From the NCBI GenBank assembly GCA_030601845.1, contig JAUWAY010000009.1:1-64000 (forward strand): 64,000 nucleotides of DNA, read 5' to 3'. Made by a program: the position numbers and the translations under genes. The stretch comes from Phycisphaerae bacterium (lineage in GTDB: Bacteria > Planctomycetota > Phycisphaerae > Sedimentisphaerales > Anaerobacaceae). Numbering within the stretch: position 1 is the first letter of the stretch; every line of letters starts with the position of its first letter. The notes beneath the pieces are model-generated. The model saw nothing but the letters and a program-made list of their open reading frames with translations, searched no databases and was not told the origin of the DNA. Positions 8,097 through 30,079 of this stretch are shown one piece after another.

Positions 8097-9161
8097 ATGC
8101 TTAGCGAAATAAGAGTTTCATGTGCCCCTCATATTAGTAAGCCGCTTTCTACGCGCAGCGTAATGATAGACGTCATAATTGGATTAGTGCCTGCTATGGC
8201 GGCGGCGGGCTATTATTTCCGCATCTATGCGCTTATCCTTATCCCCACCTGTGTCATTTCGTCGGTTGCAACCGAATGGCTGTGTAATATTATCCGCAAA
8301 AAGCCCAATTCCCTCGAATCACTCGGCGACTTCAGTGCCGTCGTTACCGGTATAATCCTTGCGTTATCACTTCCGCCGAGTTTGCCTGTCTGGGCGGCAA
8401 TAGTCGGCAGCGTTTTTTGCATCGCAATTGGGAAAATGGTTTTTGGCGGACTGGGCGGGAATATTTTCAATCCTGCTATGGTCGGCAGAGCGTTCTTAGC
8501 CGCCTGCTTTGGTATGCTGATGACGAGCTGGACGGTCCCTGCCACAATCGATTCGACAATGTCCAAAATCGCTGCGGACAACAAAATCGACGCACGGACG
8601 CAGGCAACACCACTGGCCTGGAGCAAGGAGGCCATAAAGGCCAGAAGACAGAAGACAGATGACGGAGGACAGAGCCGGGATGAGGGACGAGTATCGAGGG
8701 TCGTTAATGACCAACTTTGGGCTATGTTCAAGGGTGAGGTTGGCGGATGCCTGGGTGAAACGAGTGGCTTAGCTCTAATAATCGGCGGTGTTTATCTTTT
8801 GATAAGACGGACAATAAACTTTCACATCCCGTTTGCTGTTTTGCTATCTGCTTTTATTTTTGCGGCGATTAGTTACTTAATAAACTCCGATGCCTATATC
8901 CGGCCGTTGGCCCACCTGAGCAGCGGTGGGATGTTGCTGTGCGCATTTTTTATCGCTACCGACCCTGTTACCGCACCTTTGACGCGCAGGGGAATGTGGA
9001 TTTTTGGAATCGGGGTAGGGGCGATAACGATGCTTATAAGAATCATCGGGGAATACCCGGAAGGCGTGATGTATGCCGTTCTTTTGATGAATGCCGTTAC
9101 GCCCCTTATTGACCGGCTCTGCAAGCGGATTCCTGCAGGAGGCAAGCCCAGTATAAAGTAA
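8097..9161 (+). CDS. rnfD: Rnf electron transport complex subunit D
   Basis: 354 aa RnfD-like membrane protein, 'GGLGGNIFNPAMVGRAFL', 'ATDPVTAPLTRRGMWIFGIGVG'; in rnfCDGEAB order. Contains an inserted repeat-derived stretch near 8640-8705. Confidence 0.95.
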   Translation: MLSEIRVSCAPHISKPLSTRSVMIDVIIGLVPAMAAAGYYFRIYALILIPTCVISSVATEWLCNIIRKKPNSLESLGDFSAVVTGIILALSLPPSLPVWAAIVGSVFCIAIGKMVFGGLGGNIFNPAMVGRAFLAACFGMLMTSWTVPATIDSTMSKIAADNKIDARTQATPLAWSKEAIKARRQKTDDGGQSRDEGRVSRVVNDQLWAMFKGEVGGCLGETSGLALIIGGVYLLIRRTINFHIPFAVLLSAFIFAAISYLINSDAYIRPLAHLSSGGMLLCAFFIATDPVTAPLTRRGMWIFGIGVGAITMLIRIIGEYPEGVMYAVLLMNAVTPLIDRLCKRIPAGGKPSIK

Positions 9162-9204
9162 AAGTGCCTAAAGTGAGCTAAAGTGCCTAAAGTGAACTAA
9201 AGTT
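9155..9204 (+). repeat. Left AAAGTGNNCT tandem repeat (inverted with respect to 9589-9627)
   Basis: aaagtaaaagtgcctaaagtgagctaaagtgcctaaagtgaactaaagtt, directly abutting the ATG at 9205. Confidence 0.85.
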
Positions 9205-9555
9205 ATGGATAATAAAGAGTTTGCTAAAGAGCTTGAGAGACGAACACGGGAATTCGGCGTGCGCATAATCCGTTTATCGAGAACTCTACCCAATACATCC
9301 GAGGCAAGGGTCATAAGGACGCAGATGACAAAATCTGGAACGTTCATTGGTGCAAATTATCGAGAGTCGAATCGAGCAAGAAGCAAGGCCGATTTCAAAA
9401 ACAAGATTAAGATTTGTGAAAGTGAAACCAGTGAAACGCAATACTGGCTGGAAGTAATTGTAAAGCTAAATTGGATATCCTGGGCAAAAGTGAAGTGGGA
9501 ATATGAAGAATGCGGCGAATTACTTGGTATTTTTACATCTGCTGCGAACAAGTAA
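9205..9555 (+). CDS. Four-helix-bundle protein, 23S rRNA intervening-sequence protein (IVP) family-like
   Basis: 116 aa 'ELERRTREFGVRIIRLSRTLPNTSEARVIRTQMTKSGTFIGANYRESNRARSKADFKNKIKICESETSETQYWLEV', characteristic of IVP/four-helix-bundle proteins. Confidence 0.9.
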   Translation: MDNKEFAKELERRTREFGVRIIRLSRTLPNTSEARVIRTQMTKSGTFIGANYRESNRARSKADFKNKIKICESETSETQYWLEVIVKLNWISWAKVKWEYEECGELLGIFTSAANK

Positions 9556-9588
9556 ACTCTAAAGATGGGCCTGTGTATTGGTTTTTAC

Positions 9589-9627
9589 AACTTTAGGCAC
9601 TTTACACTTTAGACACTTTACACTTTT
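9589..9627 (-). repeat. Right AAAGTGNNCT repeat, reverse orientation
   Basis: aactttaggcactttacactttagacactttacactttt; reverse complement ends ...gtgcctaaagtt like the left copy. Confidence 0.85.
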
Positions 9628-9635
9628 TACCGTCT

Positions 9636-10322
9636 TTGTATCTTGGTGGCAAAAAAGGATTCATAATGCTTAAGATAAAACATTTTATCCAACAAAGCTG
9701 GCTGTTGATTGCTGCGTCATTCTTATTTGGGCTGCTGATAGCGGTGACTAACGCCGGCCTGGATGAGAGAATAAAGCAGAACGAGAAGGACAAACTCAAT
9801 GACCTAATGAAAGCGCTCGTTACCGATGCCAATGACTTCAAGATAGAGATAGAAGGTGTCCAGATACCCGGCAAAAGGGGCAGGGTAACTGAGACGGATA
9901 TTTACAAGGTCCTTGATGATGACGGCAACAGGATAGGGTTTGCATTTGTTGCAGTCGGGCCCGGCTTTGCAGATAAGATTAAACTTGTGATAGCTGTTGA
10001 CGACAGATGTGAAAAGTTCTTCGGATTTAAGGTGCTGTCGAGCAATGAAACGCCGGGGTTTGGCGACAAAATCAAGGAAGACTACCTTGGTGAGCAGTTC
10101 AAGGGGGCGCCAGCAGGAGAACTTGAGCTTGTGAAAGCCGGCAAGGTGGAAGAAGTAGACAGCAAAATCGTAGCGATCAGTGGGGCAACAGTGAGTAGCG
10201 AAGCTGTAGTAAAGATATTCAATACATACATTGATAGGGTAAGAGAACAGTTGCAAGCGAAGGGATTTATTCATGCCACGAAGGCACTAAGACACGAAGA
10301 AAATAAAAGTGAGCTAAAGTGA
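9636..10322 (+). CDS. rnfG: Rnf electron transport complex subunit G
   Basis: FMN-binding region 'DSKIVAISGATVSSEAVVKIFN' (SGAT flavinylation motif); rnf order. True start may be ATG at 9666. C-terminus is repeat-derived. Confidence 0.93.
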   Translation: MYLGGKKGFIMLKIKHFIQQSWLLIAASFLFGLLIAVTNAGLDERIKQNEKDKLNDLMKALVTDANDFKIEIEGVQIPGKRGRVTETDIYKVLDDDGNRIGFAFVAVGPGFADKIKLVIAVDDRCEKFFGFKVLSSNETPGFGDKIKEDYLGEQFKGAPAGELELVKAGKVEEVDSKIVAISGATVSSEAVVKIFNTYIDRVREQLQAKGFIHATKALRHEENKSELK

Positions 10323-10330
10323 CTAAAGTT
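10305..10330 (+). repeat. Solo AAAGTGNNCT repeat at the 3' end of rnfG
   Basis: aaagtgagctaaagtgactaaagtt. Confidence 0.75.
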
Positions 10331-15459: not shown

Positions 15460-17268
15460 GTGAATAAAAAAGAAGTAACGATATTGGCTGCGCGGGTTGA
15501 GCGGGAATTTTTGCCGTTTGTTCGCAGGCCCAGCAGATATATCGGCGGCGAGATAAACCAGAACAAAAAAGACCTGGCGCAATGCGACCTGAGGGTCGCG
15601 TTGTGCTTTCCGGATATTTACGAAGTTGGGATGAGCTATACAGGCCTTGCGATTATCTACGATATTCTCAACAGTATCGACGGCGTTGCAGCTGAGCGGG
15701 TCTTTGCGCCCTGGATTGATGCTGAAAAGGTACTACGCGAGAAGCAAATCCCGCTGTTTAGTCTGGAATCCAAAGCATCACTAAAAAGTTTTGATGTCGT
15801 CGGTTTTAGCTTAACCAACGAGCTTTGCTACACCAATGTGCTCAATATGCTCGATTTAGCCGGCTTGAATATCCGCAGCAGCAGCCGAGATGAAAACGAC
15901 CCATTGGTCATTGCCGGCGGTAGTATGGCAAATTGCTGCGAGCCAATGGCTAAGTTTATCGACCTATTTTTGTTAGGCGATGGCGAAGAGGCAGTTGTTG
16001 AATTGGCAGAATTGATTAAAACGCAGAAAAAAGCTGGCGCAACAAAGAGGGATATCCTTCTCGCCGCTGCTAAAGAATTTGAGTGGGCCTATGTGCCGGC
16101 CCTTTATAAATCAGAAGACAGAAGTCAGAAGACAGAAGACAGAATGGATACATCCGCTTCCGACAAGCGGAATCGAGTATTGCCCAAACAATTCAAAAGT
16201 GCTGTTGTTGAAGATTTTGAAAATGCTGCTGTGCCGTTGAAGCCGATAGTGCCGTTTGCCCAGGTCGTGCACGAACGAGTCAGTGTCGAAATTATGCGTG
16301 GCTGTCCGGGCCGGTGCCGGTTTTGCCAGGCCAGTTTCTGCAGAAGACCTGTGCGCTGCCGAAGCGTTGAAAAGATTATAGATATTGCGAAGGCCTGTTA
16401 CCTCGCAACAGGGTTCGATACGGTCAGTCTGCTGAGTTTATCAACTGCCGATTATCCGAACCTTGAAGAATTAGTTACCGGCCTGCACAAATACTTTCAG
16501 GACAAATATGTCGGTTTGTCACTGCCAAGTCTGCGTGCCCGCCGGCAGCTAAAGCTGCTGCCATTATTGGTAACTTCGGTGAGGAAAAGCGGCCTGACAA
16601 TTGCTGTTGAAGCTGCCAGTGAAAAATTAAGACGGATTATCAACAAGCCCCTCAAAGACAGGGATTTGTTTGCGGCGGTGGAAGCGGCGTACCGTGCCGG
16701 CTGGCAACGATTAAAGTTGTACTTTATGGTGGGGCTGCCCGGTGAGAGCGAACAGGATATAGAGCAGATTGTAGAGCTATCATTTCAATTAGCTAAACTT
16801 CGCAAGAAGATTGACGGCAAGACAGGGCAGATTAACATTACCATAAGCTGGTTTGTTCCCAAGCCGCACACGCCGTTCGGTTGGCTCGGGCAAAAGCCGG
16901 CAAGCTATTTCGAGCAGGCAAAACAGTTAATACTCAACGAAAAAAGGAAACTTCGTGCAAAATTTCTGCAGTTCAAGTTTCATAATATAAATCGCAACGT
17001 ATTGGAATCGGCGATAGGGCGAGGCGACAGGCGCTTATGTGATGTTATCGAAGTGGCCTGGCAGAGCGGTGCAAGATTCGATTTGTGGGACGAGTGCTTC
17101 GATTATGAAATCTGGCAAAGGGCCTTTGGAAAATTCGGAATGGATATTGACACCGCTGCACAAAGGCAGTTTGGCACTGATGAAATTCTGCCCTGGGAGC
17201 ATTTAGGCGGGCCTAATAAAAAATATCTGCTTGGGCATTTAGATAAAGCGGGACTGGTAACTGGTTAA
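15460..17268 (+). CDS. B12-binding domain radical SAM protein (TIGR03960-like)
   Basis: 602 aa; 'MRGCPGRCRFCQA' radical SAM CxxxCxxC; 'CFPDIYEVGMSYTGLAIIYDILN'. GTG start. Confidence 0.88.
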   Translation: MNKKEVTILAARVEREFLPFVRRPSRYIGGEINQNKKDLAQCDLRVALCFPDIYEVGMSYTGLAIIYDILNSIDGVAAERVFAPWIDAEKVLREKQIPLFSLESKASLKSFDVVGFSLTNELCYTNVLNMLDLAGLNIRSSSRDENDPLVIAGGSMANCCEPMAKFIDLFLLGDGEEAVVELAELIKTQKKAGATKRDILLAAAKEFEWAYVPALYKSEDRSQKTEDRMDTSASDKRNRVLPKQFKSAVVEDFENAAVPLKPIVPFAQVVHERVSVEIMRGCPGRCRFCQASFCRRPVRCRSVEKIIDIAKACYLATGFDTVSLLSLSTADYPNLEELVTGLHKYFQDKYVGLSLPSLRARRQLKLLPLLVTSVRKSGLTIAVEAASEKLRRIINKPLKDRDLFAAVEAAYRAGWQRLKLYFMVGLPGESEQDIEQIVELSFQLAKLRKKIDGKTGQINITISWFVPKPHTPFGWLGQKPASYFEQAKQLILNEKRKLRAKFLQFKFHNINRNVLESAIGRGDRRLCDVIEVAWQSGARFDLWDECFDYEIWQRAFGKFGMDIDTAAQRQFGTDEILPWEHLGGPNKKYLLGHLDKAGLVTG

Positions 17269-23645: not shown

Positions 23646-24239
23646 TTACCATTTTTTTCCCATTAATTCTACGATTTTCCTTGCCAGGTTGTTTGCCGCA
23701 AGGGCTGATGCATAGCGGAAGCCCTGATTTTGCCATTCCGAAAAGCTGGCAGAGGCGTTGACCAAGCGGTTGTCTATCAACAATTCCCCTGTTTTTAGAT
23801 TTTTCCAGTTGACCACCGCCTGGAGCTGGAGCTGTTTTTCGAGTGCTCGGCCGGTCTGGCGTTCGCTAGTCAGTATTGAAACACTTGCCTGTACGATTTG
23901 TCCGCTTATTACGGTGTCGGCCCGGTCCAGGCTGGAGATTATCTTATAGGGCGTCTCAACCTCGATACGCTTTCCCAGGGCATCGGATAGTTCGTACTCA
24001 ACTCCCCGCCAAAAGCTCTGGTTTTCAAACATTTCCACGTAAACGCTGGCTACTTCTTCAGGGAACAGCGACTCGTTGGAGTAGCCAGCCATCCCGGCAC
24101 ATCCGCAAAAACCCAGACAGAGGACAGAGGACAAAAGGCAGAGGACAGAAGACAGAAAACGAGGGACGAATCGTCCATCGTAGTCCGAATGACCGAAATT
24201 CAAATGACCAAAACTAACTATTCTTTTAACTTTAGGCAC
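23646..24239 (-). CDS. LptE-family LPS-assembly-like lipoprotein
   Basis: Lipobox 'GFCGCAGMAGYSNESLFPEEVASVYVEMFENQSFWRGVEYELSDALGKRIE', typical LptE layout; upstream TPR/BamD-like gene. Confidence 0.75.
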   Translation of the reverse strand: MPKVKRIVSFGHLNFGHSDYDGRFVPRFLSSVLCLLSSVLCLGFCGCAGMAGYSNESLFPEEVASVYVEMFENQSFWRGVEYELSDALGKRIEVETPYKIISSLDRADTVISGQIVQASVSILTSERQTGRALEKQLQLQAVVNWKNLKTGELLIDNRLVNASASFSEWQNQGFRYASALAANNLARKIVELMGKKW

Positions 24240-24268
24240 TTTAGCTCACTTTAGGCACTTTTCACTTT
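24229..24268 (-). repeat. Solo AAAGTGNNCT repeat (reverse orientation)
   Basis: aactttaggcactttagctcactttaggcacttttcacttt. Confidence 0.75.
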
Positions 24269-25282: not shown

Positions 25283-25345
25283 TTGCAAAGGGCAAATCGC
25301 TAATTGCAAAGGGCAAATCGCTAATCGCAAAGGGCAAATCGCTAA
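25283..25345. repeat. Three tandem 21-bp direct repeats (ttgcaaagggcaaatcgctaa)
   Basis: Units at 25283, 25304 and 25325; the third has t->c at position 2. Confidence 0.9.
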
Positions 25346-25554
25346 TCGCTGCTTGCTACGACCATAAAAAAACGTTATTTTTTTGCATTTTCCTCATCTA
25401 TATGCAGTAACCTCTTTTCAACAAAGAAATTAAGGGATGTGATTTTTGTTGCCAAAATATATAAATTTTCTTGATGGATGTAGCAACATCCGATATATTA
25501 TATATAATAGTTTGTGAATGTGAACTCAAGCACCAAGCAGGCGTAATATAATTT

Positions 25555-29629: not shown

Positions 29630-30061
29630 ATGAGCTGGAAAATATGGTCATTAAAGAAATCACCGTGGGTATTTCACGTTAATACGGGCGCGTGCAATAA
29701 CTGCGATATCGAGATTGTTAATTTGCTAACCCCCAAGTTTGACGTGGAGAGGTTTGGTATCAAATTAGTTGGCTCGCCTCGACACGCCGACGCCCTGTTA
29801 GTAACGGGCGTAGTAACCCGCCAGGCGGCACCGCGACTGCGGGAGGTGTATCGCCAGACCTCCAAGCCCTGTGTTGTTTTTGCAATGGGCGCATGTGCCT
29901 GCGACACAGGAATATTCAGAAGCGGTTATCATGTCGTCGGGCCGGTAGATAAAATAATCAGAGAAATTGACCCAAATGCGATTATCGCCTACGTGCCGGG
30001 CTGTCCGCCGAAGCCGGAAGCGATGATATCCGGCATAGTAAAGGCACTGTCGATCTTATAA
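29630..30061 (+). CDS. Group 4 [NiFe]-hydrogenase small subunit (NuoB/EchC/MbhJ-like)
   Basis: 'NTGACNNCDIEIVNLLTPKFDVERFG', 'GACACDTGIF', 'VPGCPPKPEAMI'. Confidence 0.92.
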   Translation: MSWKIWSLKKSPWVFHVNTGACNNCDIEIVNLLTPKFDVERFGIKLVGSPRHADALLVTGVVTRQAAPRLREVYRQTSKPCVVFAMGACACDTGIFRSGYHVVGPVDKIIREIDPNAIIAYVPGCPPKPEAMISGIVKALSIL

Positions 30062-30079
30062 AAGTGCCTAAAGTTAAAA
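30061..30079 (+). repeat. Solo AAAGTGNNCT repeat immediately after the small-subunit stop codon
   Basis: aaagtgcctaaagttaaaa. Confidence 0.65.

Follow-up and report, generated by a model that had tools for sequence, protein, structure and literature searches.

The rnfCDGEAB cluster in the 64,000-nucleotide stretch of Phycisphaerae DNA that we analysed (the window) carries an additional ORF between rnfD and rnfG. This ORF belongs to the IVP/S23 family and is placed between two repeat arrays in inverted orientation, with further arrays nearby:

8097-9161: rnfD, flanking the IVP unit
9161-9204, plus strand: left terminal array of AAAGTG(N)NCT units of 9-10 bp, covering the rnfD stop codon
9205-9555, plus strand: IVP/S23 four-helix-bundle ORF of 116 aa (PF05635, TIGR02436)
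9589-9627, minus strand: right terminal array, with AAAGTG(N)NCT units as in the left array, inverted
9628-9651, minus strand: inverted CACCAAGATACAAAGACGG sequence left over from a second type of array, lying upstream of the new ribosome-binding region of rnfG
9666-10322: rnfG, flanking the IVP unit
10306-10329, plus strand: solo AAAGTG array in the rnfG-rnfE interval, with no inverted partner within 700 nt
24229-24268, minus strand: solo AAAGTG array
30061-30074, plus strand: short solo AAAGTG array

An earlier note on this DNA had described a 116-aa four-helix ORF between rnfD and rnfG with inverted repeats around it, and both the profile searches given below and the arrays at 9161-9204 and 9589-9627 confirm this. 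The solo arrays that it placed near 10305-10330, 24229-24268 and 30061-30079 are likewise real.

The left array reads AAAGTGCCT AAAGTGAGCT AAAGTGCCT AAAGTGAACT AAAGTT|ATG, with its final unit, AAAGTT, directly abutting the IVP start codon. AAAGTGNNCT occurs nine times in the window compared to 2.1 expected, a count that none of 100 shuffles reached. Genome-wide, 73 matches were obtained with the array pattern CTAAAGTGN{1,3}TAAAGT, compared to two with the reversed control pattern. The CACCAAGATACAAAGACGG-type remnant at the rnfD-rnfG junction is also present in two related genomes, G083 and G026, and half-copies of the CACGAAG type, as found at the GxxExxY genes discussed below, lie at 9628-9651 and 10281-10302. 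Within rnfD itself, a heptamer array of the CAGAAGA/GACAGAT type (8638-8700) constitutes a 14-aa in-frame insertion that is found in none of the relatives compared; this is a second 7-bp array type, located inside a coding gene. More tandem arrays with a 7-bp period and various sequences were observed at 197-228, 16112-16144, 24116-24156 and 25285-25350. The presence of 7-bp arrays of several sequences in the window is consistent with several array families per genome.

The ORF scored 63 bits against the PF05635 profile (curated cut-off 33.8) and 78.1 bits against TIGR02436 (cut-off 24), which places it in the family. Its AlphaFold model consists of four helices (pLDDT 96.6), a four-helix-bundle fold, and is similar to the S23-family structures 2rld (TM 0.83-0.90) and 2gsc (TM up to 0.85). 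S23/IVP proteins are common and their structures have been solved, but we know of no function for them. As judged from dN/dS values of 0.03-0.28, the AAAGTG-type IVP ORF is under purifying selection. When folded as RNA, the two arms of the window unit form 29 arm-arm pairs (z -3.9), and the duplex of left and right arrays is predicted at -38.3 kcal/mol compared to a mean of -15.6 for random arms. These computations support the idea of the earlier note that the inverted repeats could pair in the rnf mRNA; with the arms paired, the IVP ORF would sit in the loop.

A search for IVP homologues in 163 genomes of the order yielded 12 genomes with close homologues (at least 77% identical), including the window's genome (G000). 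AAAGTG arrays were present at all 12, with a final AAAGTT (or a closely similar unit) immediately next to the ORF, and the 12 copies lie at six junctions: rnfD-rnfG, efp-secA, lysS-lolC-like, MazG-like/transporter, corrinoid protein-cooC-like, and ftsW, where the gene names at the five non-rnf junctions are what we take them to be from the translations. The site is empty in most relatives, where rnfD and rnfG share a 7-nt overlap. Only G000, G007 and G083 have the unit at rnfD-rnfG, and in G026, which is sister to G083, the position of the G083 unit is occupied by a solo array. In a tree of RnfD and RnfG, the three rnf-site carriers were rejected as a clade (p-AU 2e-23), and G000 adjoins G034, whose rnf site is empty. 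The IVPs nearest to the window copy (92% and 90% identical) are located at efp-secA in G100 and G034, respectively. In genomes carrying the unit at efp-secA, rnfD-rnfG is empty where assembled; efp-secA in G000 has no IVP unit, only a different small repeat hairpin.

One unit is thus found at six loci in 12 genomes, with reciprocal occupancy of the rnf and efp-secA sites, as a mobile element would be. Mobility of the unit is well supported by these comparisons of genome sequences, which show that the array, the ORF and the inverted array move as a group and that their presence or absence at orthologous sites does not follow phylogeny. The free-standing and possibly mobile IVS/IVP-type unit that had been suspected is borne out by the six loci, the empty rnfD-rnfG sites and the carriers that do not form a clade. 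The ORF is not always fixed between rnfD and rnfG, nor are the repeats random relative to the cognate IVP, all 12 copies of which have arrays. That the ORF is a conserved rnf gene was rejected because of the rnfD/rnfG overlap in most relatives. A single ancestral insertion at rnf was also rejected, given that the tree excludes a carrier clade; repeated precise loss is still conceivable.

In G098 and G099, two species of one genus (L130, L131), the IVP unit is present at one locus in opposite orientations, with flanks that are 89-91% identical and IVP ORFs that are 90% identical. Opposite orientation between similar flanks indicates either two insertions or an inversion between the arms of the unit, and the inverted arms may permit the latter; the right array of G099 is direct, not inverted. 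The aligned loci show that the unit can occur inverted in place and can be reduced to a solo array. Solo arrays behave as the footprints or derivatives that the earlier note had imagined, as seen with the solo array of G026 compared to the unit of G083. The 7-nt rnfD/rnfG overlap looks duplicated but degenerate at the G007, G083 and G026 junctions, where no clean target-site duplication can be defined. The IVP copy of G034 (L127), a genome with 167 array matches, contains an in-frame TGA and is a decaying pseudogene.

The number of arrays tracks the cognate IVP. Array matches per genome ranged from 7 to 244 (median 89.5) in the 12 carriers, compared to a median of 0 in 77 non-carriers of the same family, 50 of which had none and two of which had at least 30 (Mann-Whitney p = 3e-9). 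Within four of five mixed genera (g35, g23, g5 and mostly g13, not g27), carriers exceeded most non-carriers. The exceptions were G070, with 102 array matches and no detected cognate IVP, which may be explained by an incomplete draft (79% complete), and the carrier G083, with only 7 matches. By these pattern counts, cognate arrays are far more numerous in genomes that have the cognate IVP. A strict array pattern matched 11 of the 12 close IVPs and none of ~190 other IVP loci. As a universal IVP mark, AAAGTGNNCT was rejected because it is confined to one IVP subfamily; the suggestion that it flanks IVPs is correct for the cognate IVP (12 of 12) and fails generally, with AAAGTG arrays at one of the seven IVP genes in the window's genome.

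Our reading of the genome sequence itself covered the regions surrounding arrays. Most AAAGTG arrays in the window's genome occur as inverted pairs. By arm counts, 12 belong to hairpins with a ~150-nt non-coding cargo, 9 have a short loop, 4 have other cargo and 12 are partnerless; a single unit has the inverted pair around an IVP. The ~150-nt cargo is conserved (GAAGCTCGTTTGTNGGTGTCGAAGCTGG...) and was seen in L051, L053:10538-10759, L056, L057, L059 and L061; one hairpin copy, searched against Rfam, gave no match. Dispersed hairpins of the GTCATTGCGAGCGAAGCGAAGCAATC and CATGCTGAGCGCAGCGAAGCATC types were observed nested within AAAGTG arrays (L038:3917-4100, L063:3850-4025).

At least four of the other six IVPs in the window's genome also have inverted arrays, of different sequence and mostly with a 7-bp period. 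Arrays were scored by aligning the upstream flank (150 nt) locally to the reverse-complemented downstream flank, using Markov shuffles and a threshold of p<0.01. Inverted arrays were significant for 21 of 29 IVPs across the phylum, 54 of 80 GTDB-wide (a sample made up of the top matches to a single query pattern) and 15 of 18 on viral contigs. Among control ORFs, which provide the better yardstick because the shuffles do not preserve higher-order structure, the numbers were 3 of 211 in the window's genome and 13 of 256 in the same GTDB loci. The genomes are mostly metagenome-assembled drafts. Array-positive IVPs in the GTDB-wide sample include those of Bacteroidota, Nitrospirota, Firmicutes, cyanobacteria, Patescibacteria and archaea; a search for IVP in a phage record collection gave no match. 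On either side of the IVPs, the flanks gave autocorrelation peaks at 7 and 14 bp, which were far weaker in controls, and the left arm had a period of 7 in 63 of 90 significant cases. About one third of IVPs had no significant inverted arrays, for which decay, mis-placed ORF ends (as in the pseudogene L127) or another life style may be responsible.

Array sequence goes with IVP sequence. Among IVPs that are at least 70% identical and lie at different loci, the array sequence was common to 72 of 82 pairs, compared to 0.25% of pairs below 40% identity. Twenty-four of the array-sharing pairs are outside the AAAGTG family, including pairs from Methanophagales archaea and from Calothrix/Nostoc/Microcoleaceae. 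Judging from these flanks, what generalises is an inverted array with a ~7-bp period, the sequence of which varies between IVPs. A reading centred on AAAGTGNNCT, as in the earlier note, was too narrow, since this is one of very many array sequences around IVPs. An identical IVP on two Nostoc PCC 7120 plasmids was considered as a recent transposition pair and rejected because the surroundings are homologous too. We also observed that GxxExxY genes (PF13366, PDDEXK_3 nuclease-like; L282-L311) resemble IVP genes in that 22 of 30 are flanked by inverted short-period arrays; they differ in protein family and in the arrays, which are mostly of longer period (CACAGATTA and CACGAAGG types).

By its profiles the unit at 9161-9627 is an IVP family member; its location excludes a 23S IVS, and the defining genes exclude an IS, a REPIN/RAYT or a DGR. 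An insertion sequence or DNA transposon was rejected because the only ORF of the unit is the IVP, not a transposase. REPIN/RAYT and other MITEs are likewise small inverted-repeat elements between genes, with a single associated gene and numerous copies that lack an ORF, but the IVP is not a Y1 tyrosine transposase, the window's genome gave no PF01797 match, and each end is a short tandem array where these elements have a fixed terminal inverted repeat. In its four-helix fold, the IVP resembles Avd, the accessory protein of DGRs (8ub7_E, TM 0.71/0.74; 4dwl_D, TM 0.65/0.70), with Foldseek probabilities of 0.95-0.98 and E-values that are not significant, making these matches weaker than those to 2rld and 2gsc. 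However, sequence identity to Avd is ~12-14% and IVP carriers often lack a PF00078 reverse transcriptase; neither the window's genome (75% complete) nor G174 (97% complete, 14 IVPs) gave a PF00078 match.

Among 62 IVP-bearing genomes, no always-present partner enzyme was found. Reverse transcriptase was absent from 21 of the 62 and Y1 transposase from 16, and both Y1_Tnp and RVT_1 were missing from the window's genome and nine other IVP-bearing genomes, with the proviso that drafts can miss genes. We therefore rejected reverse transcriptase as an obligate partner (rho 0.13, p 0.17, with many carriers lacking it), as well as Y1 transposase, whose correlation with IVP copy number is weak (rho 0.38, p 2e-5).

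Intervening sequences of 23S rRNA with S23p ORFs form a stem around the ORF and are removed by RNase III, and they were earlier proposed as mobile or selfish. The window unit has the same protein family and, like these, an ORF within inverted sequences that form a stem, with the 29 pairs and duplex energy given above. In contrast to the IVSs of Leptospira and Coxiella, it lies in the rnf operon, with units of relatives at five other protein-gene junctions, and its arms are short-period arrays that vary and are also found, dozens of times, without an ORF. Conserved 23S motifs were absent from all fetched IVP loci, and IVPs inside 23S rRNA were rejected for these loci on this basis. The Coxiella 23S IVS has tandem GACAGAT heptamers immediately before the S23p start codon, the same layout as in the IVP units here (PMC4990558).

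Another resemblance is to cyanobacterial STRRs and heptameric SSRs (Xanthomonas, Nostoc, Beggiatoaceae), which are likewise 7-bp tandem arrays scattered over intergenic regions; Nostoc and Calothrix plasmids have IVPs that sit between inverted STRR-like heptamers such as AGGGAAC and AGGGAGT. For Xanthomonas, arrays of GGGAATC have been reported. To our knowledge, the spread of heptameric tandem repeats, reported in many bacteria, is unexplained. Papers on heptamer repeats and prokaryotic satellites discuss slippage, regulation or unexplained transposition (PMC4692102, PMC4679880, PMC6749651). S23 or four-helix-bundle genes, unlike here, are not mentioned in two of these (PMC4692102, PMC4679880), and heptamer repeats are reported to have no general association with mobile elements (PMC4692102). 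In the open-access literature, to which our search extended, no paper was found linking IVP/S23 genes to heptamer repeats.

Taken together, our favoured reading, to which we assign a probability of roughly 0.6, is that 9161-9627 is a transposase-less mini-element with array ends, an array-binding IVP, host-driven copying and ORF-less arrays mobilised in trans. The inverted short-period arrays would be the ends of the element and the IVP its sole gene. With its Avd-like fold, the IVP would bind to single-stranded or hairpin forms of its own arrays, and host replication, recombination or another polymerase would place copies of the segment bounded by the arrays at new intergenic positions. Arrays would be lengthened in copying, a process enabled by the IVP, and ORF-less arrays would be derivatives that are moved in trans. 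After transcription, pairing of the arms would give a stem whose loop contains the ORF, such that the unit would be tolerated in operons or 23S rRNA. Against this reading, no catalytic domain or transposase was found in the unit, no partner enzyme was constant among the IVP genomes, and a third of IVPs lack significant arrays.

It is also conceivable, although unlikely, that the unit is mobile with the IVP as a passenger or silencing accessory. An enzyme acting in trans (IS200/REP-type Y1, reverse transcriptase or other) would then move hairpins, and the ORF-less hairpins would be primary. The many AAAGTG hairpins with a short loop or ~150-nt non-coding cargo in place of an IVP would fit, as would the modest correlation of IVP copy number with Y1_Tnp number and an IVP that has no known catalytic site. 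However, array number follows the cognate IVP subfamily, the IVP ORF is under purifying selection, and the IVP layout recurs in many phyla with different arrays; moreover, ten IVP genomes, that of the window among them, have neither Y1_Tnp nor RVT_1, at least in drafts that can miss genes. We consider it improbable that the arrays are recombination hot spots, with IVP cassettes and hairpins spreading by homologous exchange between existing arrays and no dedicated mobility function. Exchange of this kind is suggested by the different arrays or hairpins that rnfD-rnfG and efp-secA hold across relatives, and by the solo AAAGTG hairpins at efp-secA in G020, G004 and G009, which is the IVP site of G034 and G100. 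Yet many recipient sites in close relatives are array-free, and exchange would leave unexplained both the genome-wide array amplification with the cognate IVP and the 7-bp periodicity around IVPs in unrelated phyla, far above controls.

A role at the RNA level, as an IVS in mRNA, appears quite improbable. RNase III would cut the stem, removing the ORF and splitting the rnf message, and DNA mobility would be ancient and incidental. The strong arm pairing and the RNase III excision of classic 23S IVSs with S23p ORFs speak for such a role, as do the Coxiella heptamers ahead of a start codon (PMC4990558). On the other hand, the insertion points are intergenic, where excision is unneeded, and the direct right array of G099 departs from the inverted arrangement. 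Finally, the arrays could be stationary cis-regulatory sites, with the IVP an autoregulator that binds the repeats at its own gene and arrays elsewhere forming its regulon. Arrays do lie directly at the start codon, many intergenic regions contain them, and a regulatory role has been proposed for the TAACTGA repeats of Beggiatoaceae (PMC4679880). We regard this as very improbable, given that the unit shifts locus and orientation and that array placement differs even between sister genomes, with no conservation at rnf or efp-secA.

Returning to the mini-element reading, our results suggest a widespread, hitherto undescribed kind of miniature mobile DNA. Whether IVP/S23 proteins in bacteria and archaea generally define transposase-less mini-elements with freely varying inverted arrays of ~7 bp, which would be a source of heptamer repeats (e.g., STRRs) and would include the 23S IVSs as members that landed in rRNA, is in our estimate an even bet. 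If true, this would be a new mode of DNA mobility in which an Avd-like four-helix protein and repeat arrays take the place of a transposase, and 23S rRNA intervening sequences would become a special case of IVP elements. It would also carry a warning for annotation, as many small "four helix bundle protein" genes in operons would be insertions and not operon members. The link between IVP and heptamers offers a concrete, testable hypothesis for both the function of S23/IVP proteins and the spread of heptamer repeats.
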